64,000 bases of DNA from Heterotrichella gracilis (Eukaryota > Sar > Xanthophyceae > Tribonematales > Xanthonemataceae): the NCBI GenBank assembly GCA_032358255.1, contig JAULBX010019743.1, forward strand, positions 17,312 through 81,311, written 5' to 3'. The position numbers and the translations under genes are program-made. Under the pieces are notes generated by a model, which searched no databases, was not told where the DNA came from, and saw only the letters and a program-made list of their open reading frames with translations. The first letter of the stretch is position 1; the number at the start of each line of letters is the position of its first letter. This document shows positions 64 through 62,757 of this stretch, piece by piece.

Positions 64-3000
64 GGCAAGCGACATCACCGACACCGTGCGCGCCGCTGGC
101 CTCCCCAACGTGGTTGTGCACGCACCCCCCCTGCCCATCCCCTACGGCACCCACCACAGCAAGGCATTCCTGCTTCTGTTTGGCAGCGGGGTGCGGGTGG
201 TGGTGCACACGGCCAACCTCATCTACGGGGACTGCAACAACAAGACGCAGGGGGTGTGGTGGCAGGACTTCCCTCCCAAGGTAATGGTAATGAGGTAGTA
301 TAGGAAGAAGAAGGCAAGAAAGGGAAAATTGGATGGGTAGGCTGTGCTAGGCTGTGGGGCCCTCCCCAAGCGCTGGCCATGAGTACCCTAAAATCACGTG
401 AGGCAGCGTTAGCTTTTCCAATATTGGAGTGATCACCATGCTTGTAAGCTCATGGCAACTGCAACTAATTAATCACTTAGTGATCAGATCATCGATGTTC
501 ACTAATGTAGGGCATGGTGATCACATGGTCTGATACCATGGCAATCATCAGTCATGAATATGTCATGACTCATGATTATGTCATGTCATGATTCGTGACA
601 TGACATTGACGGCATTTTATGTAGTGCCCAGGAGTGGCTGATCACTTCCTGCTCTCCCTGGCAACAGGCTGCCGACTCACCCGAGGACTCCCCCTTTGCG
701 CGTGACCTCCTACGCTACTGTGATTCCCTCAACCTCCCTGGCCCGTCGGCCAACCGGATGCGCGAGGTCATTGCATCACACGACTTCTCAGCAGCGCGTG
801 TCGCTCTGGTGGCATCTGTCCCGGGGTACCACAAAGGTAGGGCCTGATACCCCGACACAAACCCTACGTAGGGTACCACAAATGCGGGTCAGGTGCTGTG
901 CGTTGTTGCTGCTTTTTTCACCCCCTCTTCTTTCAGTTTTAGCAAGGGTAATAAGATAATAACAGGACCTACTATTATCTAATTACCCTTGGATTTAGAC
1001 CCGGTTTACCCATCTGCACTTTTCAGAGGCGGGTCAGATGCCTGTAGGGTGGTAGATAGTACCCATGTGATCACCAGGCCATAGTAACTCGCAGGCAGGC
1101 AAAGTGGTAGATTGTAACCATGCAGGCAGGCAGTGTGCCCTGTGGCTGGCAGGCCCTAAAGAGCAAGCTTGCCATTATCCTTTGGGGAGATTTGCCATTA
1201 TCCCTAGGTGAATTCAGTTGCTCATAAACGCAAACCCTTTGGTGCAGGCCAGGCGGTGTCCCAGTGGGGCCACATGCGCATGCGGGCACTCCTCGCAAGG
1301 GAGAATTTCGACATCAAATTCCAATCCACCCCGCTCACATTCCAATTTTCTTCCATGGGGTCCCTGGATGAGGAATGGGTGCTGTCGGAATTTGGCCACA
1401 GCTTGAGCAGGGGGGATTTCAGCGGGGGGCAGGGTCCCGGGGATGCAGTGGGGACAGGGACGGTTGCCAATGCGTTTTTCGGTACGTTGGCCCCTTCTGG
1501 CCCAACCCCCACTGCGGGCAACTTGTCACTGTTGGCTTTTGCCTTGTCAGCCACTTACAGCCATCTGTGGATGCCTGTGGATAATTTAAATTGGATCTTG
1601 TTTCCCGCATGTTTGTAAGACTTTGTCTGTGATTATATTCCTTTGTCCTAGAACCAGCCTGTGGCCTTCCCTGCATGCCGGTAGGTTTCTAGAATTGTCC
1701 TGTCGTGATAAAACCCCCTTGGGCTCCTCGCGAGTATTCCCTATTGGGAAGAGGTAAAGCAGAGAGGTGACAGGAAGGGGTCCCATATTACTGACATGCC
1801 TGTTAGGGTTTAAGGGCTACCCCAACAACATGTCTTTACAGCAAGTCATCTTGTTCACCCCTTGCCACCATCTTGTCCCAGGCAAGCGGGGCAAGGGAGA
1901 GGGCGCCAAGGCACCACGGGTGCAGGTGGTGTGGCCTACCGCGGAGGAGGTCCGGGGATCGGTCGAGGGATGGATAGCTGGGTGCAGCATCCCCGGGAGC
2001 TCAAACAATGTGGGCAGGCCATTCCTGCAGCGGCACTTCCACAGGTGCGGGAACGGGAAGACCTTGGCGATGGGGGTATCCCTAGCACAGGGGCGGGAAA
2101 CACTGCCACAGATGGGGGGAAAAGCCTTGGTTACGCTCACCCACCAACCCACCCCTTTGCTGCCGGAAGCCCTGCACATGGGTTGCCTGCGCCTCTGTTA
2201 CCCACAATAACCATTGCCTATGCTTGACGGCAGCGCAGCCAGGCGCCAGCTTGCCATGCCCCACGTCATTTACCCTAGAAACCCTGCTCGGGGGTTTTCT
2301 GAGCCGCCGCTCACCACACAACCCTGCCAGCATCTGGGCATGCCCCTACCCTCCACATGAACCTTGTGCATGGTTCTACATCGTCCCCGTTTACCCCTGT
2401 AAACCCTTGCCTAGGTTTGACGGCAGCCCCGCGGGGCGCCAGCTGGCCATGCCCCACATCAAGACCTTCACCCGAGGCACCAGCAGCGGCCAGGTGGCGT
2501 GGCTGCTGCTCACATCGCACAACCTGTCAAAGGCAGCGTGGGGCAGCTTGCAGAAGGGGGGGAGCCAGCTGATGGTGAGAAGGGATGGAAATGGAGGGGG
2601 GTGAGCGGCTTCAGGAGGGTGTGTTTGGGTGGGATGGGAGTGGGAAGCCATGGGTTAGGGTTGTCGGGGTGTAGTTTTCAGGGCTGGCTTTGGGAAGGGG
2701 AAATTGCCACTTATTGCCAGCATGTCCGCATTTACGAGGTGGGTGTGTTGCTGCTGCCCCAGACCCTTGCCAAAACCCTTGCCAAAGGTCCTCCTGTGCA
2801 GGTGTTGGGGACACGACCAGTCCTCAATGCTCGGCACTGGTTAATGACAGTGGTCACGTGACAGCGAATGTCACTTCATATTGCATGCATGTCCTCACCT
2901 TTGGTCCAATCCAAGACAAAATTGGGCAGCTGCAGGGTATGTCCTACCATAGCGAAACCCTATTTAAAACCCTCATGAATTCCCTGACGTGACAGTAGTA

Positions 3001-3939
3001 ATGGCCCGCAGGTGCGCAGCTATGAAAACCCACGAAACCCTAAAACAACCCTTATGAAAACCCTACTGTCCCGCAGGTGCGCAGTTACGAGCTTGGCGTC
3101 TTGCTGCTGCCTGCGCTAGAAGCAAAGTACCGGGCCAGCCGGCAGGTGGGGTTCAGCTGTGGGGATTTGCCGGCCCTGGGGATCGCACCAGGCACAGGTG
3201 GGATGCGGGAGTAGTTGCGTGTTGCCGAGTGTGAGCAAATGGCCTGCCTTGGGGATGGTGATCATGGGTGTTGTTGCTTGTGGGTTTTAGCAGCAGTTGC
3301 TGAGCATTGCGCAGCCTCCCAATTACTGTACAATGCACGTTGCAATCAGCAGCGTGTTGACGGGTAGCATGAATAGCAGCCAGCGGTGCAGATTCAAAGG
3401 CAGGTCATGCTTTCCCCAGCGCTGATTGGAAGTCAATTATGGCTTCTCCTTGACAACGATGATTAGGATGGCCTGTGTCCCCACATCACATCCACATCCC
3501 TAACATTATTTTGTGCCTCACCACAGGCGCCAACATCAATCCCCATCAGCCCCTAGCGCCATCCCCACATGCCCTCCCCATCTTCCTAACCATACCCGCC
3601 TTCACCACCACCACCACCCAGACCGCACCACCCCCGCAACCACCCGGGCCACAAGGTAGTGCTGTTGGTAGTGCTGCTGGCGACGCGGCATCGCCACCGC
3701 CAGGCGGCGCCTCATCCTCAGCCCATGGGCGGGATGCGCATGAGGGGGCTTCGCCTGGCGCTGACGTGGCCCCGCCCCAGCTATGCCTGCCGATACCCTA
3801 CCCGCTGCCCCCGGCACCCTACAGCAGTCAGGACCGGCCCTGGATGAACGATGTGCAGTTCCCAGGGCTGGACTCCAGGGGGCAAAGCATCACCTCCCCA
3901 GTGCGGCTGTATGGGTGGGAGGAGCCAGATTCGGACTAG
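64..3939 (+). CDS. TDP1: Tyrosyl-DNA phosphodiesterase 1, 5' end outside window
   Basis: TDP1 hydrolyses the 3'-phosphotyrosyl bond left by stalled topoisomerase I, in the nucleus. Exons that keep frame are 64-280, 668-836, 1248-1481, 1882-2044, 2415-2574, 3077-3197 and 3527-3939. The first HKD half-site reads GTHHSK (about 148-165), followed by TANLIYGD with the catalytic-site Asn. The second reads MPHIK (about 2449-2463), followed by TSHNLSKAAWG. Family landmarks RSYELGVLLLP and SSQDRPW are also present. The C-terminal exon carries an extra Pro/Thr/Ala/Ser-rich insert (about 3590-3780) that I do not recall in the animal enzyme. The N-terminal part and start codon lie upstream of the window. 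Identification rests on both HKD motifs in the right order and is firm. Introns carry decayed copies of neighbouring exon edges, listed separately. Confidence 0.95.
802..898 (+). repeat. Donor-side exon echo in TDP1
   Basis: The exon 2 end with its donor (about 823-842, GGTACCACAAAGGTAGGG) recurs in decayed form at about 879-898 (GGTACCACAAATGCGGGT), after a short CCCTACG-type spacer inside the intron. Confidence 0.6.
2215..2275 (+). repeat. Acceptor-side exon echo in TDP1 (second HKD exon)
   Basis: Bases about 2221-2268 closely resemble 2412-2460, the 5' edge of the exon with the second HKD motif. Both read TTGACGGCAGC, then GGCGCCAGCT, then GCCATGCCCCAC. The intronic copy is frame-damaged and CACATCAAG has become CACGTCATT, so the catalytic Lys codon is gone. 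Confidence 0.8.
2724..2770 (+). repeat. Acceptor-side exon echo in TDP1 (RSYELGV exon)
   Basis: Bases 2724-2766 would read VRIYEVGVLLLP and copy the true exon start at 3077 (VRSYELGVLLLP). A shorter partial copy (GCAGGTGCGCAGCTATGA) lies at about 3010-3028. The introns here also hold several AAACCCT runs. Confidence 0.8.
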
Positions 3940-6095: not shown

Positions 6096-9000
6096 ATGAC
6101 AGCCACCTGGGTAGCAGACAACGAGCTAGGGCTGTTGTGCCTAGCCCTGATCGCTATCACAGCAGGGTTTTTGGTGCAAATGGTCAGCCATAGCAGGCAG
6201 CGGCCAGGCACACCGCCACCCACGCACCCCCAGCCCGCCCCGCCACCCCCCCAAAGCCCCCAGCGGCACCGGCCATGGACCAAAGCGCGCAGCGCCACCG
6301 AAACCGGAGCGCCCCGGACGATGTACCTGCACCAGAGGAAGCCTGTCCTCATCCACCAGCCCCAGTCCCCACCAGCCACCACCACCTCGTCACACCCCCA
6401 CCCCTCCATCGACTCAGCCCACAGCGGCAGCCCCCCCAGCTCCCTCAACTTCCCCGCAGCCCCCACCCCCCACCCCCACGCCGCCGCCTTCACCGAATCC
6501 GCACGCACCCTCAGCAGCCCCGCTTGTGACCTCAGCATGCCGCTTCCGCCCCCCACCCCTTCCCTCGTCCAGCAGCTAGCCCAGGGCCTGAGGATCCCCT
6601 CCCCTGCGGAGCGCTACGCCGACCTCCACACCTTGCTGCGCCGCAAGTGGTCCGACATCATTGCCACCAGGCTGCGCAAGTCCTCCTCCCTCCCGGACCT
6701 CAACGGCCTGGAAAACATCGGCGAATCCCCACAGGGGGTCCCCTGGGACAGCTCGCTGGGACAGACCGACCCCTGCAGAACCGGCCCCTGGCAGGCGGGG
6801 CCGTTCAACATGTCCCCCCTGCACAGGGGCAAGACCCAAGGGGCGCCTGGTGCAGGAGGCGAGGGGGGAGGGATAGGTGAGGACCCCACATGGGCCCAGC
6901 TGCGTGCGCTGATCACCAACAGCCAGGGCAGCGACCTGGTGATCAACGCTGAGGACCTGGAGGTGAAGATGCACCCGGGGCAGAACCAGCCCTGGCTGCT
7001 GGGCGCAGGCGCGTCTGGAAAGGTGCGGGCGGGGTGTGTGGGCTGGAAGGGCGTGTGGTTGAGTGGTGGCCGGTGCTTGGCGCACTGTTCATGGTGAGGC
7101 ATGGTGTGTGTTAATGCATGGTGGGCTCGGGCGCATGGGAAAATGGGGGCTGGGGACCCTGTGTAGGGTTTGCAGGTGACAGGGCTCCTTGTGCATGGGT
7201 GTGGTTGGCTGTGTGCCCGGGAAGGCTTATACTGGGAATCCTGGTGCAGGCTTTTCTGGCAGGGCTTCTGGGAAGGTGGGGGCAACACTAGTCCCCGCCA
7301 AGCACAAGGCCGACACCAAACCCTTGCAAAACCCTACCACCAGTATACAAACACTCACAACAACCCTACCCACAGGTGTGCAAGGCCATGCTCCCGTTAC
7401 GTCAGTGTACAAACCCTTACAGAAACCCTTCCTACTGGTATATAAAAGCCCTGACGGAACCCCTCCCCGCAGGTGTACAAGGCCACGCTGCACGGCAAGC
7501 TGCCCGTGGCGGTCAAGCGCATGCAGTCCAGCTCGCCCGCGCTGTTTGCCGCCTTTGCGCAAGAGGTGGCCATGCTGCGCAAGCTGCAGAGCCCCTACAT
7601 TGTGCAGCTGCTGGGGGTGTCGCTGGATGCGCGCAACCGGCTGATGCTGGTCATGGAGTTCATGGGGGGCGGGGACCTGCTGGGGGCAATTGAGCGCAAG
7701 GCGGTCACCTTCCAGCGGAGGTGGGTGCGACGGCTGGGGGGGATGGGGATGAGGGCGAGGGAGATAGGGATGAGGGTGGAGTGGGGGTGTGGGGCGGGTG
7801 GGGAAAGCGTATACTGATGAACCACGTACATATGTGCGCAATGGTTGCGGTGCGCATACACAAGGGTTTGCCCATATGCCCACGCAGTCATACATGGTCT
7901 GGCTGCAGTGCTGGAAAGGTGAGACATGATTAACTGGCATGCATACATGGATGGCCTATGCACATGCGCCATGCGACGTGATACACCCCTTCTGTTTCCC
8001 GTTTGCATTCACACACATGCAAACTGGGTGACCATGCGCCAGCAGGACCTCAAGTCGCGTGAGATCAATAAGTGGTTCAAACAGTGCCAGGAAGGAGCTG
8101 CGTGGCGCCGCATGTGCAAGACCGACTGCTAATCTGGCTGTATTGCTGGAATGCATGTAACTAACTAATTAAACGGGGTGACCATGTCATGTGCAAAGGT
8201 TCCCCGCCTCCATTCCCACAATCTAGGCGACAGCCCCCTTGCCCACATGCGCGCACAATCCCACATCACGCATACACCCCCTTGCCCAGATGTGCGCACA
8301 ATCCCACATCACGCATATACCCCCTTGCTGCAGGGGTGCCAGAATCGCCCTGGATGTGGCCATGGGCCTACATTTCCTGCACTCCAAGCACGCCATCCAT
8401 TTCGACCTCAAATCCGCCAACATCCTCCTCACCCAATCCCTGGGGGCCAAAATCGCGGACGTGGGCCTGTCGAAAGTGACAGAGCATTCCAAGACTGTGG
8501 GCACCCTCAGCACCTTTGCCTATATGGCCCCCTGCCTCCTGGAGCAAAAAATGTGCAATGAGAAGGTGGACATTTACAGCTTTGGGGTGGTGCTATGGGA
8601 GATTGTGGCGGCAGAGAGGGCGCAACGGGGACGTCTGCGCCGACCAAAGTGAGAACTTCAGCAAAACCCTTCCAATGTTTGGTTCAGTAGCCATTGTAAC
8701 CCGTGCCATTGTGCTTTGTAGGGTAGCAAGGTGAGTGGTCACTGGTTAGGCTGATGTTTCAAAAGCTTAGCCCTGAACCCTAAACCCTGACCCTAATTTG
8801 CCACCAATCTGCGTCTCCACCCCCTCCCGCCTGCCCCACGACTCACCCCCAAAACCCTGCTGTAGTGTCCCCGAGGAGTGCCCCGCCGAGATCGATGCGC
8901 TCATGCAGCAGTGCCTGTGTTCAGACCCCGAGGCCAGGCCACATGCTGGCGAGATTGTGGACATATTGCAGCGGGTATTGGCGCACATGGTAACGGACCG

Positions 9001-9639
9001 ACGGCGCTCCTCATCCTCCATGGAGTCGCAGGCAGGAGGGTCCCAGGTGAGGGTGGGTTTAGGGTTTGCTAGGGTTCACAGGTGGGTGCTCATGGTATCA
9101 GGTTGAGCGTGCTCCTCCTCATCCTCTATGGAGTCCCAGGCGGGAGGGTCCCTTGTGAGGGTGTATATAGGGTTTGTTAGGGCAAGAGTGATTAGGGTTT
9201 GTTAGGGTTCTTGCACGTCATCTTCAGCCGCAGGGGTGCTGGCTGGATGTACTCAGTGGGCACTGCGGGACACAAATGGACAAGTCTCCAATGATGCACC
9301 ACCCATGTTGCCTGGGGGCTGGTTCACCTGTCATCCTACATTTGAACGTTATAAAAAAACCTTTAATGACAGATCAGTTTTAATTGCTTTTCCCCCCTCT
9401 AAATCTAATTTGCCTTCATGCGCTCCCAGGTGCTGCAGCAGCTGCGGCTGGCGATGGCTGAGGGCAGGAGCTGCTCCACGGGGGGACTCTTCGAATCCCC
9501 AGGGGGCCAGCCCAAACCCTCTTTGGGCGCTGACGCCAGCTGGGCTGCTAACGTGGCGGTTGAAGCTGAGGCGATGCCCATGCACCTGGTGAATGAGCGC
9601 AAGGGGAGGTTGAGGTCGCTGTATGACACCGCCAGGTGA
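6096..9639 (+). CDS. Membrane-anchored TKL/Raf-like protein kinase
   Basis: Predicted Ser/Thr (or dual) kinase with an N-terminal membrane anchor. Exons are 6096-7022, 7473-7720, 8334-8648, 8866-9046 and 9430-9639, all in phase, for about 626 residues. I chose ATG 6096 because of its GCCGCC context; the same frame is open back to an ATG at 5778. A hydrophobic segment (GLLCLALIAITAGFLV) sits near residues 10-30, followed by a Pro/His/Ser-rich linker of about 200 residues. Kinase landmarks: glycine loop GAGASGKV (about 303-310), VAVK with Lys324, Glu in FAQEVAMLRKL, HFDLKSANILL with Asp416 and Asn421, DVG (Asp434) in place of DFG, and MAPC in place of APE. All three core catalytic residues are kept, so activity is likely. 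The linker before the kinase core suggests a receptor-like or endomembrane kinase. No ligand domain is visible. Confidence 0.85.
7365..7405 (+). repeat. Acceptor-side exon echo in the kinase gene
   Basis: CACAGGTGTGCAAGGCCATG at about 7371-7390 copies the true acceptor and exon start (GCAGGTGTACAAGGCCACG, 7469-7487). AAACCCT runs lie on both sides. Confidence 0.7.
8233..8333 (+). repeat. Tandem repeat ending at a kinase-gene acceptor
   Basis: Two copies of a unit of about 49 bases (CCCCCTTGCCCA..GCGCACAATCCC..ACGCATA) are followed by a third start, CCCCCTTGCTGCAG, which is the real acceptor at 8333. The repeat phase therefore supplies the acceptor tract. Confidence 0.75.
9108..9170 (+). repeat. 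Donor-side exon echo in the kinase gene
   Basis: About 9112-9165 repeats the exon end and donor at 9007-9060: CTCCTCATCCTC, then ATGGAGTC, then CAGGCGGGAGGGTCCC and a new GTGAGGGTG. It is followed by another TTTAGGG-like tract. Confidence 0.85.
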
Positions 9640-18563: not shown

Positions 18564-19835
18564 GCTCAGAGGGGGTCGAATGGGGAGGTGACTGATGGCT
18601 GACGTGCAGCTGAATCAGATGCGTGCCACGTACCAGTGGTCTGATGGACAGGCAATGTGTTTTGTTGCCTATGTGAGGGATGGGCGTTGTATATCATTTG
18701 TATGTTCAAGGGAGGATGCTGTGGTACGCAGTGCTTGCCAAGAATTTTAATAATATCGAATTACTATGCATTCAGTTTACCCGTTTGGGACCGTAAAGCA
18801 CAGTCCACAGGACAGCAACTGTTTGAAATATTGTGATAGGGATTACAAGATTGGTAACTTCATTCAAATCGCTTGGAAATTGCAGTGCGATGACATCTGC
18901 CATATGCGTTGATGCTTATAATCACTGTATTACTGCCGTATTTACACTTGCAACTTGTTTACATGTAATATGGCGCTGGAAACAATACAATAGTACTACG
19001 CATGTGCGTACTACTAGTTGGGAATATGATTAAATTTCTTGAACTCAGATTGCGTGCCACAGCACTGCTGCACACTTGGAAGTTGCTGGCAACATTCAGT
19101 ACACTACAGTACGCTACCGCAAGTGCACTGCAGCATGGCAATGTAAGCTGAGCGGTGGCAATGTGAACTGGGCTATGCACGCTAGACGATGCGATAAATA
19201 CAGGGACACCTTTTGGGCAAAAAAATCGGACGTAAGCCAGGTCCTGGCTAATTGCTGTTCCTAAAACATGGCGTGGTGCTGACTGGATTGAATACATCAC
19301 GGGCACCCAGGCAGCCACGCCCCTCTAGTGCTATACACAATTGATTTTGGATTGCTTGTTGCAGTGCATCATGCCATGCAATTGTCACCCTGTGCCACCC
19401 TGGGGCAACTGCGTCCACAAAATACGAATTCACCTAAAATTGCAATATCTGTCTGTACGTGTCCAGAAACGGGCCCTGAATATGTTGCCGCCATCACTCC
19501 TCATGACCTGTGGTACTACCACCAGGCACTGCCCATGGGACACTGCGCTGCGCCTGTGTGAGGTACACCCTGCGCCGATGGCTGCACACCCTCCCCCTCC
19601 CCGCGCTCCTACCCTTAACCCTCCCCCCAGTGCTGGTCGCGGCAAAACGGCGCGGGTTGACCCCAGCGCCACACGGCCAGCAAAAGCAGAAGGCCCTCCC
19701 ATCTTCCACCCACGATTGAGCCGTGAGGCGCTCACGCACATAGGACTCCCCGCTCCACAATGCAATCCAGGAACATGGTTGCACACACCCATGCCTACGT
19801 CCAGCCACCCATGCTCACATCCAAGCCCAGGCCCG
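18564..19835. other. Convergent spacer
   Basis: Lies between two genes that end toward each other and should hold both 3' UTRs. No coding signal or conspicuous repeat seen. Confidence 0.5.
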
Positions 19836-22114
<2,279 letters not shown>

Positions 22115-27567: not shown

Positions 27568-27885
27568 GGAGAGGGGGTGGAGTGGGAGCTATAACATATG
27601 GCCTGAGGAGAGGGGGTGGAGGGGGAGGTATGGTGCCACCAGGGGGGTACGCGGGAGCAGACACCATGCTGCACCAGCTGCTGGCGTGAGGGGAGGGGCG
27701 GATCAGGTCCTGAGCAGGAAAATCACAAGGGCGGCAGTGTCAGCACCATGCACCGGGGCTTGTTTCAATCCGGCTGGGGATGCATGGGCAAGAGGTATGG
27801 ATCTGACAGGGGCGGCGGGAGGCGGAGCGGGTCCTTCGGCATGGACACCGTCCTGCAGCAGCTGCTGGCCTGAGGAGAGGGGGTT
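27540..27885 (+). repeat. Tandem decayed copies of the RIB72 stop-codon end
   Basis: The true end (GACACCGTGCTGCACCAG, then CTGCTGGCCTGAGGAG, to about 27571) is followed by a short copy (GGCCTGAGGAGAGGGGGTGG, about 27600-27619), a longer copy at about 27659-27695 (GACACCATGCTGCACCAG, then CTGCTGGCGTGA), and another at about 27843-27885 (GACACCGTCCTGCAGCAG, then CTGCTGGCCTGAGGAGAGG). Each longer copy keeps the Leu-Leu-Ala-stop reading. Confidence 0.85.
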
Positions 27886-43802: not shown

Positions 43803-46211
43803 ATGGCTCGCTGCGGTGCAGTCACCCACGTCTTGTCACGACCCACCATGTCGGCACACAAGGCCACTGCACGGCCTGTATGGGCCAAAACCCATACTAT
43901 AACACCCTCCTGCTTGGTGTACAAGGCCCCTCCGCGAGGCCAACCACTCCCCAACCTGCCAAGGCCCAGGTCAGTCAAGGGGGGTACCCGCAGGCTTGTC
44001 TGCACAGCCAGCGCGAGCCAAGGGGACGATGTAGGCGGTGCAAAGTGGGGTTTTGAAATACCTTCGGTCAAGGTACTGCAGGGCACGCTGGGATGGCGGC
44101 GGTTCGGTGGACGCATATATGCACACACCTGATGGGTCCCCGACCGGATGATAAAACGGCATTGCAAGAAATACAATATCGCCTATAGTAGCTACGTAGA
44201 CAGGCAGGGGCCCCGGGTAACCAATGGTGATAACACTTCGTGTGTTATATCTGGTGCAGGGCATCGACACACCCACTTCCCTCCCCACATCTATTTCCCG
44301 CCCCACGCCCACTTCGCTCCGCTGGAAGCTAGCAAAACTAGACGTTGTGGAGGTGCGCGATCCCCCCACTCACCATCCCCATCCCTCGCACACCATCTGC
44401 CCACCCACCACCCACCATCTACACCATCCCCGGGCCCTCCATTTGTCTTAGTGGGTGCCTTGGTACACCTATTAAAAATGGTAAAGGTATTACTGTGACA
44501 CCTATTCCTTGCCCAAAACCCTTAGGCAATGGTATGATTCGGATGAGGACCCCGGCCACTGGCGCTGGTACTGTGACTAGTCACAACCCTGAACCCTAAA
44601 CCCTAAACAGTATGACCTGCGGGATGTCACGTCTACCACTTGGCAGAACTCCAGGCTTAGGATTTGATCTCCTCTACTGCTGAATATTACTATTTGATCC
44701 AGTGGAAGGGATGAAACCCCTGCATTCGCTTCTTAACTCACCTATCAGCCAGTGTAGATTCTATAACCCTTGGCCCTGCCAGGGTGAACCCGTGTACTAG
44801 GGATCAAGGTATTACATAGTACACGGGTTATAATCTAGTACACGGGTTATAACTTAGTACACGGGTTACAACCAATTGGTATAACACTGTTTGCAACTTG
44901 GGTGCATACCTACCTCTCCTAAGACTTCTTAGCATTAACTTGTATATTTTCTGTTTCCTGCATCTGGGGCGCAATTTGCTCTCTGCGCGCCTCCCCGGGA
45001 TCTTGAACCGTTCCACCCGGGAAATGCCAATGGGTTTGAATGTATTATGGTGGGCTCTTCAACATTTCTCTGTTATATTACTCTGCTCCCCCAACCCCCA
45101 CCCCCACCCAAAAAATGTCATGTATACCCGCGGCAGACGCATCCTTATACACCAAACTGTTGACACAACCACCACCTCCACACCTCCTCCACAACCACCT
45201 CCACCCTCCCCCTCCTTCCCCACCCACCCCCGCAGGTTGCCTTTGAGTGATAGGCCATGCACAGTCAGAGGCAATAGCATCGGATGGCATAACGGGAGTC
45301 AGCACAAATGTATGCGCAGCTGCGCAATGAACGCACATAGTCGATGAGTGAGGTGGAGAAGGAATGCTTTTGCCAATGTTCACCTCCTTCTTGAATGATT
45401 GCCCCCCCTCCGGCAGCCAGGTGTGTGAGCCAACACTGGTGCCCTGCGCGCGCCTGGCTGGGTGTGAGAGCAGCCTCCAGCTTGAGGAGCTGGTGATGGG
45501 CCTTAATGCGCTGCCACCTGGCGCTGCGTTCCAGCTGTACGTGGAGGATGTTGAAGCAGGTGAAACAGGTGGAAATAGGTGAAACCGTAAAACCTAACGC
45601 TGAGCCTAAAAGCATCCCAGCTGCATGGGGAAGACGCAACTAAATCTAGATTTAAGAATATGGTTCCGATGTGTCTTTCCGCAGTGTATTGGGCTGCGTT
45701 ATGTGCTTGAAACTGCCAAAAGCAGGAGGCAACCCTATGCTTGCGAATGGCTCTGTAAGTGATCCTACGTTGAGGTTAATGGGGCAAATTTGGTGCGTGT
45801 TGATCCCAGGCCAAAGCGTAGTAAGTTACATGCAGTCGGGCATATAGCCAAGTCAGCAGTCAGCCTTGCACAAGTTTGGGACTCTCAACTCTATCCTGGC
45901 ATTACATGTACCACGTTTTTAATATTCTTTATCCAAGCCGTAAGTAAAGGCACACCAAGCCTAGACAGGTGTACACCCCCCTTGCAGGGCAGAATTCAGT
46001 AAGTGGTGTGCATCATTCACTGTGTATTAGTGCATTGGAAAGGGCTGAGACTCTTACCCTGCGTTGTCCATTTGCAGACACCCGCTCAGCAAGCGGAGGT
46101 GCGCGTTTCCGGCTGTACTCAGGGTGCGAGGACGCGGCTGCACTAGCCGGCAAGGCGGGGCGCCTGGCGGTGGTGGTCAAGGAGCAGGAGAGTGCAGCAG
46201 CAGAACCCTAG
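43803..46211 (+). pseudogene. Tandem family copy C, interrupted by an inserted segment
   Basis: Exon 1 (43803-44072) is intact: MARCGAVTH start, SAHKATARPVW, RRLVCTASASQG. A shortened exon 3 (44260-44352) ends LDVVE like its relatives. The next exon opens with GTTGCCTTTGAG (45236-45247), then meets TGA; its homologous continuation (PSGSQVCEPTLVPCARLAGC) resumes only at about 45406 and runs to 45559. About 155 extra bases therefore lie inside the exon. The last exon (46078-46211) is open, reads SASGGARFRLYSGCEDA, and ends with an added tail whose stop comes from a CCCTAG unit. Either a pseudogene, or the insert is spliced as a new intron; a GTGATA donor is present but the phase does not work cleanly. 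Confidence 0.55.
44812..44878 (+). repeat. 21-base tandem repeat in copy C
   Basis: Three units of TAGTACACGGGTTATAA(T/C) followed by CT, in an intron of copy C. Confidence 0.85.
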
Positions 46212-46295
46212 GATAGGATTTTAATGGCGCAAGTGCGGCTGCGCTGGTCAGCAAGGCGGGGCGCCTGGTGGTGGTGGTCAAGGGGCAGGAGTGAC
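46129..46295 (+). repeat. Tandem copy of the last-exon end of copy C
   Basis: About 46228-46295 (GCGGCTGCGCTGGTCAGCAA, then GCGGGGCGCCTGGTGG, ending CAGGAGTGA) repeats the coding end of the last exon (46135-46195). The copy is closer to the A/B-type ending (VVVVKGQE, stop) than to the exon it follows, so the C exon has drifted and the copy may keep the older ending. Confidence 0.8.
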
Positions 46296-47903: not shown

Positions 47904-50900
47904 ATGTCACTTCAGGAGCTCTTTGGATCTGCGGGCGCCGCGGCGGGGGTGGAGGTGTGGCGGGTAGAGCAGTTCAAGCCCGTGTTGCAAAGCGCTCGCC
48001 AGCACGGCAGGTTTTACACGGGTGCGCCTTGGTGATAGGCTTTCTCAAACGCATGCATGCATCAGGCCCATAAGAGCACTGGCGCAGGACGCGAAGAGTG
48101 GCATACCTTCTTGCCAGCGACCTGTTTTTGACCAACACGTGTGATATAAGGATGAAGGTTATGTCAGCAACAGGGTTGACCTTGTGGTTCCTAGGTGTGC
48201 ATATATGCATGCATGCAAAAAAGCATGCATGCGTCCGAGCGGCATTGGGCCGCAGTCCGCCCGTTGCTGTTCGTCCCATACATCCCTTCATATCCTCTGA
48301 AGTTACCTTCTGCTTGCTTTTTAACCGCAAAACTGGCAAGATCTAAGCCCACCGGCAATGCACACTTGTACACACGGGGCGATGGCTAGCTAACCCCCAT
48401 ATGTAAGGGGCCCCAACTTGCACAACCACTACCGCGACAGCCTACTGCCAGTCAGAAATACCAACTCTCCGTGTTCCTCGCCCAGATCAACTATCCATGT
48501 TCCTCGCCCAGATCCATAATCCCACGCTGCTTCAATCTGTTCAGCGGCATTTTGGATTGACTAACTTGAATACTGGACTTTGGCCCCAAGTATAAGTGTC
48601 ATCTTCAGCAGGATTCTTGTGGGAAGCTTTCCTTAGGGCCCTCGCCCGTGAAGGCTGGGGGACGGTGGTGTTTCAAACCCTAACAGATGTTGGGTCTAGG
48701 GTTTGGTTGTAAACCAAGGTCAAACCCTCGAGTAGGGCACGTGTCTCCCACCGGTTGCCGGGGGGCCATCCAAACCCTTACTTAAGGGTATGTCCCCCTG
48801 TGCAGGCGACGCCTACCTTGTCCTCCACACCCTAGTGCAGGGCAGCTCCAAGACCTACGACATACACTTTTGGCTGGGAGCTGAGGCATCAGAGGTGAGG
48901 CGGTTATGCACAAAAACCCTGAAACATAACCCTAGGGCTTGACTAGGTGCACTTCTGCCGCGTTACCAATGGTGCGCCAGCAAGGGGAGTAACAAGCAAC
49001 GCTTTATTATTCACTGCAAAATGCTAGCGTTTGCGTTCACTGATGAGGGATTTACCCTAAGGAAGGGCTTTTGCGCTTCGCTGCATGCCCATGGCAACCA
49101 CCACAGCACACATCAGGTGCCCAGTCACTCAGTGTGCGCCAAGCGTTTCCAGCATTCCCATCCAGATGCACATCCACACTGCAATGCGCAGTGGCCAGCT
49201 AGCGTACAACCCCTAAACAGGAACTTCAACCTGTACCAGGAACCCTGAAGTCCTGTAAAGAACCATAATTAGTAACCCTAAACCCTAATCAGAGCCTTTG
49301 AACCACGTGCAGGATGAGGTTGGCTCAGCTGCCATCCTGGCTGCCCAATTGGACGAATTTCTTGGGGGGGCGCCGACGCAATTCAGGGAGGTCCAGGGCC
49401 ACGAGTCCGAGGAATTTGGGCGCATCTTTGGGGGGCAGCTGGTGTACCTCCAAGGGGGAGTAGCCAGTGGGTTCAACCACTACCAAGAGGAGGAACACCC
49501 CACCACGCTGCTGCAAGTCAAGGTGGGGGGCATTGGGGATACACCGGTGTGTATTGTCAAGGAATGCTGCTGGTAAATCCAAATCATTGTCCTCCAATCT
49601 CTCCCCTGCCTTCCCCCAACCCCCTGCATGGCCGCATGCGCAGTGGTGTGCATGTGTGGCAGGTCGCCCCCATCCCTCCTCTTCCCACCCACCCCCCAAC
49701 CCCGTCATTTTCCCCCTTGCAGGGTCGCCTGCGCAGCGGTGTGCGTGTGTGGCAGGTGCCCCTTTCCCTCCCCTCCTTGAACAGCGGCGATGTTTTCCTC
49801 CTTGACTCCGGTGCCATCCTGTACCTGTGGTGCGGCCAGGGGGCTGCCCCTGGGGAGAGGTTCAAGGGGGTGGAGGTGGCGCAGAGGGTGCGGGAGGCGA
49901 GGGGAGGAACTGCGCAGGTGGGTGGGGGGTGGGGGAGTGGGCGGGGGTGGTGGTATGGCAGATTCTGCGCGGCCCGATTGAGTGGGTGGGTGGGTGATGG
50001 GTGGGGTACAGTGTAGGGGTCATATCCAGCCGGTATAATTGGATTTTACGATACCTGTACCCATCGGCGTTTTGGACCTATTATTTGGTTTTGTATCTTG
50101 CATCAATACCGTGCAACTCACTCCAACACCAACCCTAAACCCTAAACCCTCCACAATCCAGGTGGTCACCTTGACCCAAGGGGAGGACAGCAGTGAGATG
50201 GCGGATTTCTTCAAGCTGCTGGGGGTGGAGGACCTATCAGGGGTGAGCATCAGGAGCGCTGAGGAGGGGGGGGAGGATGGTGCGGCGCCCCAGGGGCCCA
50301 TGGACACACCACATCTGTACAAGGTACCGTTGCTCACAAAAAAGAGAATGGGTCCTGTCGCCCAGGACATAGTGATCGAGAGGGTAGTGCTCTCCCACCC
50401 GCCATGGACATGCAGTGTAGAATTCCAGTTCTTGACTATTTTCTTGTGTGACCCTATTTGAGTTATGCTTTCAGTTTGTAGTAAGCCAAGTGGAGGCTAG
50501 CCCCTCCCGCATCCAGGCTTATGATCCAGTGGCATCCTGGCGGCTCCATGGCAATCCGTAGAACCCCAACTTAGGGTTTCCACCCCCGCCCAATCCACAC
50601 CAGTGACTTAGTGGCGCCTGCCGGTTGGCGCTTGGCGCCATGGCGATCCCCAAGTTTCCAAGCTAGGGTCTCTAAACCATACTCCCTCGGGTGTCTAGGT
50701 CAGCAGAATAGGAGATGTGCTGCACCATGTGGCACCATGGCAAGAATGTTACCCCCAAAACCCTAAACCTTGATCGTTGACAGGTTCCTGGTACAGGTCA
50801 GCGACTCGAGCGGCAGCCTGGTGGTTACTGAGGTGACAGGTGGCGCACTGTCGCACCGCCAACTGGACAGCAATGATGTGTTCATACTGGTGGCAGGTGA

Positions 50901-53008: not shown

Positions 53009-56000
53009 TCATTGCTCCTCCTGCTTGCAGTGGTGGAAAAGCGACTGGACATACCAGGACTGCCACTGGCCGCACGCAAAGCCGTGCTTGCGCCCGGTGG
53101 TGTCGACCCAGCTGCATTCCTCTATGCCCGCCTGCGCAAGAGAAAAGGGGTGGTGTGGGTGTGGGTCCAGTTCAGGGCTCAGGGTTTTGGTTAAAAGTGC
53201 TGGTTAGGGTCAAGGTAGGATGTTTCTGCAATTTGCGGGACGTATATGTACTTTCATGCATGTACTCTGGACTGTGCAATTGGTAGGGGAGCGCAACCAT
53301 CAGGCTCATGTGTTTGCAACATGCCCATGCATACATGATCCGCAGGCATTGCACCTCATGTATACACGCAGCATGGCCTCACCGAGCGGAGGTACAGGTG
53401 TGGAAATTGCACTGAAGACGTAAGCGTGGATATCCATGCTTGTGGTGGCCCTCATTTAGCACATAACTATATAACATGATGCAAAATATAAAAATGGGGC
53501 TGGTCGTAAAATGCAAAAGGTGAAGTGGAAATACATTACAATGCATGCAAGTGCTGCATTAATCACAGTGTGGTGGCCCTCACCGAGCAGTTGTTGCGCA
53601 GCCCGCATTGCCCGCCCTTGAGCCTGCATGAGCTCTGGTACTCATTGAACAGGAAGGATGTGCAGCCCGGGGCAGCCATGCAGGCCTGCTTGCACTCGCG
53701 CAGGCTGACGGGCAGGCGGTTGCTGAACAGGGTCGGCTGCAGGGGGGGAAAGAGGGCAAGCTAGTGAGGAGGGGGCTGATGCTCAAGGTGGGCATATGGT
53801 GCATGATTGGAAGGGGGCCTTTAGGGTTTAGGGTTTAGGTTTTGTGCGCAGCAGGGTGGGGTAGAAAGTTGTGGCAATGCACTGGCGCAGGTCGACCGGC
53901 AGGCGGTTGCTGAACAGGGTGGGCTGCAAGGGGCTGGGGAGGGCAAGCTAGTGAGGAGGGGGGCTCATTCAAGAAACTGGAAGTTGAACCCGAACGGTTG
54001 ATGAGTAAAGTGGGTTGCATGGAGGGGGATAGAGTGGGCAGGGGTGGGGAGGGTTGCTACATGGGGTGGTGTCATGCCGGACAGATGCACCTGGGATTGG
54101 CTGTACATGACTTGTGTAGACCTTCGAAGACAGCTCAAGTTTTCAACACAAAATGGGCTAGCGAGGGTTTGCGGAAAGACAAGCATTGTGTGCAGGATTT
54201 GCTAGGGTTTATGCCACGCACGTCTGTCTTGTCATAGGCCGTGTACACCCCCACGGGGTCTGGGATGTACCCCGGCGCGTCCTGCGGCCACACCACATTG
54301 TATCCCGCATCGCATGCTGCGCCCAGCCACTCGGTCTGGAACAGGTCCTCGAGGGCTGACATGGTGACACTGCAACGAGGAGGGGAAATTAGATGGTTGT
54401 GCTGCAACAAAATGGGGAAATTTAGATGGTTGTGATGCGGGACGGCACCAAGTGATGGATGATTATAGCATGATGCTCAGCATCTCAGCCTGGAGCAGGA
54501 CCCTCTAGGGAAGACATGGTTCCACTGCATGGGGAGGGCCTTTAAATGACTTCACATCATCAAGGGAAGGAACCCAGATGGTGCAACGTCATACATACCG
54601 CCAACATACCGCCGTCCCCTCTAGATTTCTGAACCCTCAAATTGCCCTCTTGCCCCAAACCCTTTGCCCTCTTAGCCCCAAGCCCTTTGACCTCGTAGCC
54701 CCAAACCCTAAAGCCCAAATTCTACTCACTTGTCCTCCCTGCAGGTGATGCCATCCCCCTTGTAGCCTGGGTAGCAGCGGCACTCAAAACCCCCGCGAGT
54801 GTTGACGCACCCCGCCTGGGGGGCACAATCCGCAGTGCCCCTCACGCACTCGTCGATGTCCACGTCGCATTTCGGGCCTTCAAAGCTGTAGAAAAGAGAA
54901 AACCCTTTAAAAAAGAGAAAGCCCTCAACCTGGAGGGGGTCCAGAACGTGGGGAAAGTCCTAGGGCGAGGGTCCAGGGAGTGGGGATTTGGGTTTTTTGT
55001 GTGGGGCGCGGCGCGCTTCATCCGAAGCGACGTTTGATTTGTGTGCAGTGGAGGGTAGGCTATTGTCAAGCCCACACATTTGCATCCAAGGTCTTGCAGC
55101 CTGGGTAGGGCACACCAACAAATGTGGAGATACCCATTGCCTCCCCTTCACCCCCTCCTCAGCACATTCCCCCACATGGGCGTCTTATTACCATGAGATA
55201 TCCCTCCCGCCCCCCAACCCCCCCACCACTCACCCCGTGCCCCACATGCCCCCCACCCACGAGCTCCTGCACGTGGGCAGCTTCAGGTCAGCGCTCATGC
55301 GCGCGGGGCACCCCCCATCCTCCTCCGCACCCGCAGCCTGCTCGCCCAGTGCAATGCTAAAGTTGGTGATGGCGCCCCATGCCACATCGGCCTCGTTGAG
55401 GCCTGTGCCGGCGCTGGGCTCATCGGGTTGGGTCAGCCAGTTCCAGAAGAGGGCGCCCTGGACGGTGAGAATAGGTTTTAGGGTCTCGATTAGGGTTTTC
55501 CAGTTGAGGGCGAGGCAGCATTTTCCAGAAGAGGGCGCCCTGTGTGCATGCAGGGTCTGGGGTTGGGTTTCCCAGACAGGTGGCGGGTGAGCATTTCCCA
55601 GACAAGGGTGCCATGAGAGGGTTTGCAGGGTCTGGGTTTGGTGTATGGGGTGGGAGGTGGTTTCACAGAAAGCTTGCGCTTGGTTGAAAGTGCACTGTCA
55701 GGGTGCATGTGGTCGATTTATAATCCTGCAAGCGCAGGGACAAGTGTTTAGGTATTGCAAAGTATTCCGGGAAAATGGAATCGGTACCAAATGTAGGGTC
55801 TTAGGAACTTTGGAAAATGGGTTTTGAGCAAGGGTAGATGAGAATGGCTTGGGTCCCTCCTACCTTGAGCCCCTCCCCCTGCCTGACGCTGTCCCCAGTG
55901 AGCTGGTACACCGACTGGTACACCTGCAGCCGAGTCTGCGTCTCTGTATCATTGCCCCCTTGGGCCTCCTTGCCAAACTCCTCGAGCAAAACCTGCAGAG

Positions 56001-59000
56001 TTGAGGAAACATCTTATAGTATTATAATGATGCAGGGTTTATAGTAAGTACAATTTCAGGGTTTTTGTGAGGGGGTGCAGTGCACTGATCCCCCCATGCA
56101 AGGACGGTGTTGAACGGGGGCGGCATGACAAAAACCCTTCCCGCTAGCAAACATCCTTCAGCTTCAAATGAATTAGACCCATGAAGGAGTTGCCAAATTA
56201 CTTTTAATACCGCAAATAGCAGCATATGATTAAGACCCATATACCTATCAGCACTGCAAGTAGTGACTATTTCATGCTAGGGTATTCCTCAAAACCCTAC
56301 CGGCTTCTTCAGCAGTGCTGCGTCCTCCATGTGCTGCTTCACCCATGTTTCCCTGAAGGAGGCCTCCCGGGATCCCCAGTTGTCCGGCCAAAAATGAAAA
56401 GTCGCAAAATCGATGTTATCCCCAGAGTGGTCCTCCAGGAAATTCTGTCCCGTGTAGGGCGGCCAGGATCCCCAGGGGTACTGGGGATTGTATTGCGCGC
56501 GGTCCTCCCCGTAAAAACCCTCCTCGCCCACCGTCACAAGGTGGTTAGCATCGAGCGATTTCAAATAGGCGGCCATCTCGTCGACCCAGGCCTGTAAAGA
56601 TGGGTGCCAGGAATGGAGGGAGAATGGAAACTGGGCTTGCGTGTGGTTTTCATGGTAGCAGAGCAGGGTTTATTGTTGCGGTGAGTGTTTGATGGCGCAC
56701 ACATGAATTTTTCAGATGAGGTTATTTTGCTCCACTTACGCCTGTGATGTGGAAGGGTAAAATGGGTTCAGGATGAGGTGCGGGGGTTGAGGGCTTTAGG
56801 AGCGGGGTCTGTTGCCAAGGTGGCTGCTGTTCTTGCAGTGCTGTATGAGGCGGATTGTAGGCGGCATTTTGTCAACACGCCTGGCTCCATGCAGCAGCAG
56901 ATTTGGAAGACCCTAAGGATTTACACACCCAAAGGATCCACATCTTCCCACCCAGATAGCGTCCTTGCATTCCCCTCCGGCGGCGCCCATACACCGCGCC
57001 TCATTAACCAGGGTTAAGGGTTTAGGTTTACGGCCCACCTTGATGACGCCCTGCTTGCACGTCCCCTCCGGCGCTGTCATGCACCGCGGCTCATTCACCA
57101 GATTCCACGCAAAGATAGTGGGGTCGTCCTTGTACCTGCGCCAATGATGCCGGGTTTACGGTTTTGGTCTCGATTGGTTAGGGTTTTGCAGTGGGAATGT
57201 GAACTCTCTAATCACTCAAACTGAAAGGGTGTAGGATTTAGGGTAAGGCAAGGGTCGGCACACATGCTTCACCCGTCAGGTTACTGGTGTGCAGCCTGTG
57301 AGCATCATGCCCCCATTCCTTGGCGCCTTTAAGACCGAGATATGCCCTTGTGGAATAATACGGGCCGACTACCGCAATTAGGGCTTAAGCTTTCCCAGTA
57401 AGTCAGCACTCGGTTCAGGGTTTGCTAGGGTTTTTGTGCACGCACTTGACCCCCGTCAGATAGTTTGTGCGGTTGGTGAGCGCCACCACCCACTCCTTGT
57501 AGGCGTCCTTGGTCTCCTCCCGCGTGAAGAAATCGTCCCTGCCCTGCCCTCCTGACCGCTGCACAAATTGGTCCACCCCCAGGCCTTGGGTCCAATAGCT
57601 GGTGATGGCCAGAATGACCTGTGTGGGGATGCGCAGGAGGCGCGGTTAGAATGGCGTGGGTCTCAGACATAATCCTATTGAGGTTTTGGCATTATCCAGC
57701 ACCCTAAGCACACTATCCCAATGGTCCATGGCCACTCAGTGATATGCAAGGGAGAGCAATTGCATGGATATTGGGAATATGAAAAGCCTCCCAGAAGGAC
57801 GCACCATGTCACCCCCTCTTGTCCTCGTCCAAACACTCCCCATCTTGCACCCCTTGCACCCCGCTTCTTCCACTCCCCGCATCCAGTCCATGCCCTATTC
57901 GCCTTTTCACATCCCACACCCCTGCTGTTCATGATGCTCCAACCCATACCCAACATGCACGCCCCCTCATAACACCCATTTTGATCCACCGCATCCTTCG
58001 CTCCCCTTCCCCACCCCCCGCCACCCACCTTGATCCCCCGCCTCCTGCACTCCCCCAGCATCCAGTCCATCCCCCTGAACACCTGCTCATTGAACACCCC
58101 CCTGCTGGGCGAGATGCTCCAGTCGTTGGACACGGGGAAGGCCCAGGTGCGCATGATAGTGAAACCAAACGAGGTGGCACGGTTTAGCACGCTCGCCAGC
58201 TGGTGCTGTGCGGTGGCGTTGGGGAAGAAGCGGCGGCCGGGGACGTAGGGCGACCCCGAGGCGTACTCCACTGCTTCCCACCTGGGGTGTGTGAGGAAGG
58301 GGTGAGAGGGGGCCAATGCGCACCTGTGCGTGTGCGTTTGGGTGGGCAAAAGCCCAGGTGCAAGAACCAAACCCCACGCACTGGATCCACTCGCTGCAGA
58401 CACCCATGGCCTGCCGCAGGCCATGAACTGCCCACCAAACCCTAGTCCAAGCCCCAAGCCAAAAACCCAAACCAAAACCCCGTTCCAGACCCCGTCTACC
58501 CACAAGTACTCACTGGTTTCAGCCGCTGCCCACCCAAGACCAACCAGAAAATCCTGACCCGAGCCACAACCCTAGTCCAAACCCCAAAACCCTAGCCGGC
58601 CACTCACTGGTTCCATCCGCTGCCCACCCATGGCCTGCCGCAAACCATAAACCGCCCACCAAACCTGAGCCCCAAGCCAAAACCCTAACAAAACCCCAAT
58701 TTCACACCCACCCAACCCCCCATCCAGTTACTCACTGGTTCCATCCGCTGCCCACCCACGGCCTGCCGCAGACCATGAACTGGCCCTGGCACACCGTCAC
58801 AAAGCAGCTGGCGGAGCGCTTGGCGGCCGTCTCCATGGCGGGACTGGGGTAGGTCCACTTGTTCAGGCTGTGCTGGCTGCGGCGCCGGGCCTGTGGGGGT
58901 TGGGGGGTTGGGGAGGGTGGTGGGGGGCGGGGGGCGGCCAAGGGGTGGGTGGGGGGCAGGGGAGGGGAGTGGGGAGGGCACCCAGGGTGGAGGTGCCTGA

Positions 59001-60807: not shown

Positions 60808-62757
60808 ATGGGTGTGCGGCAACTGCAGCAGCTTTCAGAGCAGCAGCTCCAGGAGGCGGGGTTGCAGGAAAATGAATTGGCGGCGGTGGTGGCGGGTATC
60901 CAGGCGGCGGTCCAGCAAAGTGGCGGGTGCGCGATCCAGGTGGGTGGGCAATGGCATGTATGCATGTGACTTGTCCTATAACTTCTGAAAAAGGATTTCT
61001 TTTCAATGCCACCTTAATAAGAATTCTATACGGTTTTCCTTACATAAATGTGTTATGTGGTAACTGCAAGGACTAAGGCGCACACATACACTAGGAAATG
61101 GTGCAAGCTACAGGCAATAGAGAACGTTTGGATTTTGCCTAGGTCTGGTCAAGGGCAGAATGTTGAACAGTTTGAGCATTTACACAAACCAAAAAGTGGG
61201 GTACATGAGAACAACCTGCATGCACCTCTACTGGGCCCCATCTCAGTCCCGTCCGCACCGCACCCCACTCCCCACTCCTCACAGGCCTGGCGCCACATTT
61301 CACAACACGTGCTGCGCCCCCACCACCCCTTCCCCCTCCACCGCCTGCTGAAAGATGCTGCTGCGGCGGATTGGCCGGCGCACCAGAAGGGCCCATTTCC
61401 GCTGTGGTCCCCCACCCAGGCCAGCGCGCAGCGCACGAATTTGGCGGCATTTATGGACACATTTGAGGTGAGTGTGCGCATTTATGGCATGTTTGAGGTG
61501 CGCATGGGCATGCAGCCTGGCGCATTACATGTGGCAATAATAAATGGGCTGTGTGCAGGTGTATGTAGACAGCGTCCTTGGCACTGCGTGTGTGGGCATG
61601 TTGGGGGTTCTGCATGTGGGGACAACGCTGTGTAGGGTTTAGGGTTTGAGGTTCTGCATACTTGTGCTGTTGCCCCAGGATTTCAACGGTGCGATTGTTG
61701 AGTTCTAATAGTTTAGGAACAGCACAAAGCAGAAATCAAACGGCCAGTGTTAAGGAAGTCATCTGGACACTAAACATTTGAAACCCTAAGACTTAAAACC
61801 CTAATCTCGAGGCCGCCTCGCAAGAGATGACCTGGCAGCAGGATCAAACCTGGAACCCTAATCCTTGATCCCTAAACCCCAGATATAAATCCTATAATGG
61901 TAATCCCTAATTACTGCCCCTGCAGGATGCCGCCTGGCAGCGGGATCGAACCCGGGACCTGCTGGCCGACTACCCGCTGCTGCACAGGGTGTCTGTGTCA
62001 AACCCCGAAGGGTTTTGGCCCCCGCTGCTGCGCCATCTGGGCGTGCGCTTCCACACCCAGCCCCACAGGTGAGGTCCAGGGTGTGGTAATTTTTTTGGCA
62101 ACCCCACGCGCTCGTGATGGGTGACCAACACAGAACAAAGCTACCCGCAAGTAGTGGCTCTGTTAAAAGGCTCAAATGTGACTACCCTATTAGGGTTTAA
62201 GGTTTACGCTTGTTCCACAAACACGAAGCTATTGGTCTACCCCACTGTGACGAGCTTTGATTGCTATGTGTACTTGTTGTGTGCCCCTCCCTTGGTATGT
62301 GTTGACCACACCCTGAAACCCTTATGTAGGGTTTTGCAGATGGCTGACACCCCTGATGACTGCCGCTGGTTTCCGGGGGCTCGGCTGAACATCGCTGAGA
62401 GTGCAATGGCCGACAGGCAAGGTAGGCACATTGGAAACCCTAACGCTGGAAGTGGAACCCCTATTTGCTGCACGCTACACCCTGGATGAAAAACCCTAAT
62501 GGTACAGACCCTGTGGTGGCAAAATACCCTCATCGCTGACATGTCCCTACGCCCTGCACCGTTGGAATGGAAGCCTTGCATAAACCCTGTGAATTGCATG
62601 CTTGATTGCGGACTCTTCATGCGTCCCATATGCTCCAATCTTTCCTTTCCCCATTTCATTCAGGTGGCGAGGTTGCGATAGTGTGGGCGAGTGAGGGCTC
62701 CCCCACCCAGCTGCAGCGCATGAGCAGGGGGGAGCTGAGGGCGCAGGCGGGGAGGGT
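60808..62757 (+). CDS. Acyl-activating enzyme (AAE17/AAE18-like), 3' end outside window
   Basis: ATP-dependent acyl-CoA synthetase of the ANL superfamily; only the N-terminal region is here. Exons 60808-60939, 61285-61467, 61926-62068, 62330-62421 and 62664 to about 62755 keep frame. Matches to the plant AAE17/18 N-terminus: a short coiled lead (LQQLSEQQLQEAGLQENEL), AWRHISQHVLRPHHPFPLH, then NPEGFWPPLLRHLGVRFH, then CRWFPGARLNIAES, then GEVAIVWASEG and LQRMSRGELRAQ. The exon starting 62330 must use the TAG acceptor in TTATGTAG; the more obvious TTTGCAG eight bases later breaks frame. The ATP-binding P-loop and the rest of the enzyme must lie beyond 64000 after an intron longer than 1.2 kb. 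The peroxisomal location known for plant relatives cannot be tested without the C-terminus. Confidence 0.85.

Follow-up and report, generated by a model that had tools for sequence, protein, structure and literature searches.

The window analysed here, a 64-kb stretch of contig JAULBX010019743.1 from Heterotrichella gracilis, has the appearance of dense, intron-rich eukaryotic nuclear DNA, and 24 of its 67 modelled introns hold a recognisable echo, that is, a copy of the edge of an adjoining exon. All results refer to this single window and to gene models predicted in this analysis, which came from a small gene finder followed by manual editing; the 67 introns (those shorter than 1.5 kb) have a median length of 383 bp and provide 134 junctions. 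A Pfam scan of nine proteins supports TDP1, a protein kinase, NAA35 and gelsolin, and further recognises an adenylate-kinase-family kinase (called UMP-CMP kinase in the original prediction, a name retained here), a GH5 hydrolase with EGF and PAN domains (the mannanase) and an acetyl-CoA synthetase N-terminus in an acetyl-CoA synthetase-like gene; two of the nine gave no match. The RIB72 protein finds its best match in PDB 6u42 (E=6e-165), a Chlamydomonas structure; judged by this match alone, the DNA would likely come from a flagellate green alga. The last exon of TDP1 was shifted one base by hand, and that of H3, a member of the H family described below, was manually set to 46225, extending 14 bases beyond the stop codon. 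The C12 and H-family models are incomplete, C12 retaining one frame problem and adding one echo-free intron.

The echoes are real and the pattern is common. When the window was compared with itself by blastn (score >=36), offsets below 250 bp comprised 34 direct and no inverted repeats, those of 250-500 bp four direct and one inverted, and those of 500-750 bp none of either kind; an independent ungapped detector covering offsets of 15-450 returned 64 segments with a score >=34 and none in ten order-2 shuffles. In the pairing test, 50-bp exon edges were compared with introns at a main score cut-off of >=34 and a looser one of >=28. A match to the adjoining intron was present for 16 of the 134 exon edges (21 of 134 at the looser cut-off), against 0 of 7,980 pairings with introns of other genes (6 of 7,980), and the shuffled-pairing comparison proposed with the original prediction, made within the window, thus favours it. 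At the main cut-off, matches were likewise absent from other introns of the same gene (0/758), from the intron on the exon's far side (0/106) and between reverse-complemented edges and their own intron (0/134); exon bases 50-100 gave 0/128 (3/128 at the looser cut-off). Intron windows set against one other-gene intron each gave 0/928. The lack of unpaired matches means that no shared element is involved and bears out the claim of local tandem duplication rather than transposition, and the companion claim that whole exons are not duplicated holds as well, with none of 36 aligned pairs covering the whole of a modelled exon. All ten coordinate pairs originally named were recovered, nine as blastn high-scoring segment pairs (HSPs) and 58608/58735, in the mannanase array, by alignment (48 of 51 aligned bases identical); for 53889/53712 the pair exists, with the register given for it about 10 bases off. 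Ten loci were counted in NAA35, for which six or more copies had been claimed, and nine gene models carry intron copies, fewer than the "at least ten" genes announced.

Direct in orientation and local, the copies sit on the noncoding side, and most of them combine exon and intron sequence. Our locus set comprises 27 intron loci with one copy in contact with a modelled exon; representative offsets are 32-226 bp (median 117), blocks measure 25-163 bp, and additional copies occur at distances of up to 354 bp. On the exon side, the copy contains 6-86 bases of exon and 0-136 of intron, and the aligned block includes both exon and intron in 21 of the 27 loci and exon only in six. Acceptor-side copies outnumber donor-side ones (20 vs 7, p=0.019). 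Ends of coding sequences (CDSs) are also copied into 3' flanks, twice in RIB72 and once each in H3 and the UMP-CMP kinase gene, and the H1 CDS end has a weak copy too (38622/38858, score 33). The statement that only junctions are copied therefore fails: with blocks that mix intron and exon, exon-only blocks, and CDS ends duplicated into 3' flanks or 3' untranslated regions, the target extends beyond splice junctions, and the copied feature is the coding-sequence edge rather than the splice site per se. Introns with echoes are longer than those without (median 436.5 bp, n=22, vs 329 bp, n=45; p=0.0085), in agreement with the proposal that the process lengthens introns.

At each locus a copy free of constraint lies beside a constrained exon, and the exon copy stays functional. 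Mismatches between copy and exon amount to 12.2%, 12.9% and 20.4% at codon positions 1, 2 and 3, and to 19.2% in noncoding sequence, a pattern that follows from an intronic copy that mutates freely, an exon that changes mainly at third positions, and noncoding pairs that change on both sides; of the 15 indels within exon parts, 14 are frame-breaking. Noncoding identity was taken over two sets, giving 84.3% of 906 columns (36 pairs, three of them wholly noncoding) and 80.8% of 616 columns (33 pairs, multi-copy loci being counted repeatedly). The splice dinucleotide has survived in 18 of the 24 copies that could be aligned (GT in 6 of 6 donor copies, AG in 12 of 18 acceptor copies), close to the neutral-decay level of ~77% expected for two sites with 12% decay each, and decoy splice sites arise as a by-product of duplication, as had been proposed. 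Copies had been described as ranging from identical to barely recognisable; junction copies are ~70-94% identical and none is perfect, while the array at 40291-40452, which adjoins an inferred exon outside the models, reaches 97%.

Tandem units that are full or nearly so occur in the UMP-CMP kinase array and at 40224-40452 and 38049-38164. At RIB72 25783..26071, where the unit is ~122 bp and the second copy differs from it by ~59 bp in length, the seam between the copies corresponds to the flank of the second copy once the 59-bp difference is allowed. The events also recur, since three tandem paralogs of an unnamed family, H1-H3 (36300-47500; H2, scanned in Pfam, has no match), have their duplications at different positions, which upholds the view of a process repeated over time. 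Their exons are 79-91% alike and their introns unalignable past ~20 nt from the donor, the last introns measure 207, 805 and 518 bp, and the repeat list shows no pair at the H2 and H3 junctions corresponding to the H1 echo at 38447..38548. Introns in this window turn over fast.

Telomere-like heptamers are a second feature of these introns. Exact TTTAGGG/CCCTAAA words cover 5.2% of introns, 0.5% of exons and 1.7% of all unmodelled DNA, with a Markov expectation of 0.5-1.3%; because the unmodelled class mixes intergenic DNA with unmodelled genes, we also chose seven intergenic stretches by hand (7,873 bases), where coverage is 0.9%. Of the 67 introns, 54 contain heptamers, and both orientations are represented. 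Heptamer density in introns is about ten times that in exons, and the 6-mer cores cluster in the zone 6-40 nt away from either end of the intron (p=0.0013 and 0.0073). Core orientation is biased towards sense CCCTAA-type cores within 6-40 nt of the acceptor (7.1 vs 1.5%) and barely so near the donor (5.7 vs 4.0%); AG is avoided near acceptors, and we read the bias as such avoidance and see in it no proof of an RNA motif. Seam tests covered 23 of the 27 exon-touching loci, leaving out 29936, 31896, 38049, 54361 and the CDS-end cases. Heptamer coverage is 9.5% in seams and 5.4% elsewhere in those introns (1.8-fold; permutation p=0.002), and a heptamer core is present in 13 of 23 seams vs 8.0 expected (p=0.013), or in 14 of 27 with all loci. 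The tie between copies and heptamers is hence statistical, and the assertion that heptamers space the copies does not hold throughout. The core density of the true copy's intron part (11.1%) equals that of the seam (10.6%), with 5.9% in the decoy copy, 7.1% in the next 60 bp of deep intron and 3.8% beyond, so that heptamers may mark the junction-near zone generally, and the seam enrichment may in part reflect that zone.

The position of the duplications was compared with a simulation of uniform placement, purging, decay and indels, in which 43-58% of detected events cross an edge when no targeting is imposed. At the main threshold, 27 of 31 intron loci touch an exon, with P=8e-11, 1e-6 and 1e-4 under a one-, two- and three-fold detection advantage, respectively. 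Adding six weaker or repeat-finder-only intron-internal loci lowers this to 27 of 37, with 11.7, 16.3 and 19.2 expected under the same advantages (P=6e-9, 6e-5 and 0.003); at offsets >=48 bp the count is 26 of 29 (P=5e-11, 6e-7 and 4e-5). A preference for coding-sequence edges is therefore likely but not settled, given that 17 of the 27 loci lie in NAA35 and mannanase, that the exon models are our own and that the decay model is simple. The original idea of direction towards junctions survives in so far as this excess over purging plus decay suggests direction, which would be to coding-sequence edges and not to junctions only. The individual loci are collected in Table 1.

Table 1. Duplicated coding-sequence edges in the window (coordinates are window positions; offset is the distance between copies)
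Coordinates	Strand	Gene	Feature	Offset and details
2209..2461	+	TDP1	Acceptor copy 2209-2268 of 2402-2461	193; 85%
2717..3111	+	TDP1	Acceptor copies 2717-2758 and 2999-3025 of 3064-3111	353 and 65
7317..7489	+	Kinase	Acceptor copy	93; seam 17 bp
9007..9182	+	Kinase	Donor copy 9115-9182 of 9007-9074	87%; unit end has TTTAGGG
19749..19869	-	UMP-CMP kinase	CDS end in 3' flank (19749/19832)	83; 79%
19951..20134	-	UMP-CMP kinase	Acceptor array	HSP offsets 93, 145; ~four degraded ~48-bp copies by eye
25783..26071	+	RIB72	Donor copy	122; 89%; second block offset 181
27520..27912	+	RIB72	CDS end including stop codon, two copies in 3' flank (27520/27642/27843)	
29267..29547	-	NAA35	Acceptor copy	206
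29936..30160	-	NAA35	Exon-interior copy in adjoining intron	197; exon-only block
30342..30566	-	NAA35	Donor copy, two blocks: 30342-30367 (junction), 30427-30471 (exon only)	
30663..30864	-	NAA35	Acceptor copy	both copies with AAACCCTAG at unit end
30941..31246	-	NAA35	Donor copy	215
31896..32070	-	NAA35	Exon copy inside intron	150; exon-only block
33106..33305	-	NAA35	Acceptor copy	141
34054..34218	-	NAA35	Acceptor copy	108
34664..34873	-	NAA35	Acceptor copy	117
35179..35469	-	NAA35	Acceptor copy	166
38049..38164	+	H1	Short intron, nearly all two 57-bp units ending 6 bases beyond acceptor	
38447..38548	+	H1	Acceptor copy	70
40224..40452	+		Three units of 83-90 bp, all with GCTGCTGCTG/GTGAG at the end; CCCTAAA tract	probably adjoins a putative H2 exon end, outside the gene models
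46134..46291	+	H3	CDS end copied to 3' flank (46134/46235)	101
49620..49774	+	Gelsolin	Acceptor copy	93
53691..53962	-	GH5 mannanase	Acceptor copy	tandem TTTAGGG in seam
54309..54538	-	Mannanase	Acceptor copies	156 and 32
55441..55641	-	Mannanase	Acceptor copy	82; seam with heptamer
56964..57101	-	Mannanase	Donor-side copy	90; exon-only block; seam with heptamer
57859..58121	-	Mannanase	Donor-side copy	177; exon-only block
58374..58785	-	Mannanase	Donor array, at least three copies	
61831..61959	+	Acetyl-CoA synthetase-like	Acceptor-side copy	102; exon-only block

The intron-internal loci (8234, 23629, 31324, 41561, 42770, 48462 and 54652, with weaker ones at 17720, 42738 and 58895) are mostly short-period arrays. 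Intron minisatellites at 41561-41708, 54642-54709 and 42770-42823 have units of 16-23 bp that contain a telomere-like word, and a weak pair at 42738-42840 (20 bp, score 30), away from junctions, has telomere-like repeats between its copies. The H3 stop codon, TAG at 46209-46211, falls within a telomere-like CCCTAG at the seam of the CDS-end duplication. The telomere 20-mer CCCTAAACCCTAAACCCTAA occurs in at least 117 stretches of a genome contig collection and in 24 of a viral contig collection; among the matches listed, many contigs are labelled Bacteroidota and other bacteria, and the word often forms tandem arrays. In the viral contig collection the heptamer-plus-acceptor pattern had 0 matches, and comparison with the RIB72, mannanase and UMP-CMP kinase proteins found no relative there; Rfam gave no match in the window. 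The gene finder called decoy copies with splice-like ends, at 7263-7275 and 30353-30373, as micro-exons, and both were manually removed because the protein reads through without them; automatic annotation of this genome probably suffers from similar micro-exon errors. A trial exon of the UMP-CMP kinase gene (21649-21760) was rejected for its broken frame, with four stops.

We consider it probable that the echoes are recurrent small tandem duplications across a coding-sequence edge, be it a splice junction or a CDS end, which would arise in staggered-break repair, be kept when harmless and then decay. A staggered break (two nearby nicks) would open across the edge, both overhangs would be filled in and the ends rejoined, and telomere-like DNA would sometimes be added or captured at the seam. 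Duplications internal to an exon would be purged; one that crosses an edge would retain one good junction and so persist, the intron lengthening and the copy decaying. Less certainly, breaks or their repair may be more frequent near intron edges, where heptamers concentrate. Several points weigh against this account. Matches between seam and flank were found in only 3 of 34 pairs by affine extension (p<=0.05) and in 5 of 26 by a local search allowing large indels (TDP1 2999, UMP-CMP kinase 19952, RIB72 25783 and 27520, and NAA35 34664), with ~1.3 expected; as most seams align to neither flank, clean head-to-tail units are a minority, and one has to assume either filler added at duplication or seams turned over afterwards. 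Ten of 23 seams have no heptamer core, two genes hold most of the exon-touching loci, as given above, and the break-repair steps would be carried over by analogy with other organisms, as would any link to CST or telomerase.

Undirected tandem duplication, in which the junction pattern reflects survivorship (exonic events being purged) together with easier detection where one copy is constrained, is possible, although we lean against it. Simulated events without targeting already cross edges about half the time and intron-internal loci exist, but the observed 27 of 37 and the 26 of 29 at larger offsets exceed what it yields, and, taken as 50-bp windows, 16 of 134 exon edges have a match in the intron they adjoin, compared with 20 of 483 intron windows that match elsewhere in theirs, junction copies included. 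The explanation first offered for the echoes, a junction-directed duplication primed or nucleated at intronic heptamers, taken here to involve breaks at heptamers beside splice sites followed by CST/primase fill-in or telomerase addition, strikes us as unlikely. It draws on the intronic concentration of heptamers, their proximity to intron ends and their enrichment in seams, and CST-Pol alpha-primase does make small tandem duplications at mammalian breaks (PMC8355091); yet core-free seams include those of clear echoes (25783, 29267, 49620 and 57859), cores are no sparser in the intron part of the true copy than in the seam, and the acceptor excess is not obviously predicted. Only tentatively, and with more doubt than belief, do we entertain that exon-intron boundaries are repair hotspots combining small tandem duplication with telomere-type addition or capture, with introns growing from the splice sites towards their interior as edges are duplicated again and again and telomeric filling is added.

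The remaining alternatives fare far worse. The acceptor excess would suit an RNA-mediated origin, with reverse-transcribed pre-mRNA or a splicing intermediate patched into the locus, but copies at donors and CDS ends, multi-copy tandem arrays and the absence of any spliced exon-exon join in 499 join-vs-intron tests within the same gene speak against an mRNA template and make this very unlikely. Selection of intronic copies as splicing regulators is just as improbable: complete GT retention at donor copies might hint at it, but AG survives less well at acceptors, nearly all indels in exon parts break the frame, and codon positions 1 and 2 differ by ~12%. Birth of introns through tandem duplication of an exon piece that carries AGGT shares with our loci the duplication of splice-site sequence in tandem (PMC3443670); however, with the boundary placed by offset, the copied boundary lies 58-508 bp away from the opposite end of the intron and meets it in 0 of 27 loci, which argues against such birth, and insertion of introners is countered by the 0 of 7,980 matches between exon edges and introns of other genes. 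We regard either of these as barely credible.

Staggered-break duplication has precedents in other organisms. In mammalian cells, repair of staggered breaks generates small tandem duplications through fill-in by CST-guided Pol alpha-primase and then non-homologous end joining, with plant data cited in the same sources (PMC8355091, PMC5730883). Those duplications resemble the echoes in being direct, local, small, independent of existing repeats and genome-expanding; they differ in that most seams here contain unaligned sequence and the units concentrate at coding-sequence edges. Insertion of telomeric repeats at breaks, sometimes with target duplication, is known in mammals (PMC2246262, PMC7215372); target duplication is given for 6 of 130 rodent and 4 of 25 primate loci (PMC2246262) and for 3 of 66 horse loci plus two complex ones (PMC7215372), and human interstitial telomeric sequences are intronic at chance level (31%). 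Such insertions place telomere-type DNA between two copies of a break site, as is seen in 13 of the 23 seams tested here; in mammals ~4.5-16% show duplication and the human sequences are not intron-enriched, in contrast to the strongly intronic heptamers here. Intron gain by tandem genomic duplication (PMC3443670, PMC2891723) also duplicates splice-site sequence in tandem; here an existing intron is lengthened and no new intron is seen. Introner elements are alike in being a lineage-specific change to introns and unlike in that no dispersed sequence is common to the genes here. The process had been said to have no established name, which is correct only in part, as small tandem duplications (PMC8355091, PMC5730883) and telomeric insertions with a duplicated target (PMC2246262, PMC7215372) are already described. 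In the open-licence literature, judged by titles and abstract openings, we found no description of exon-edge copies in introns or of intron-specific telomere heptamers. The window fits a mix of staggered-break duplication and telomeric insertion, from which it departs in two respects, the strongly intronic telomere-type DNA and the duplications favouring coding-sequence edges. The core is a known mutation class as it appears after selective filtering; what may be new are the preference for edges and the heptamers specific to introns.

Intron lengthening and lineage differences in intron size are often attributed to transposons. This window shows another route, frequent tandem duplication across coding-sequence edges. 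With the constrained exon as reference the events can be polarised, so that duplication rate, repair signature and neutral decay become readable, and the echoes supply decoy splice sites, which misled gene finding here. If the heptamer tie holds genome-wide, it would link telomere-type end processing to intron growth.

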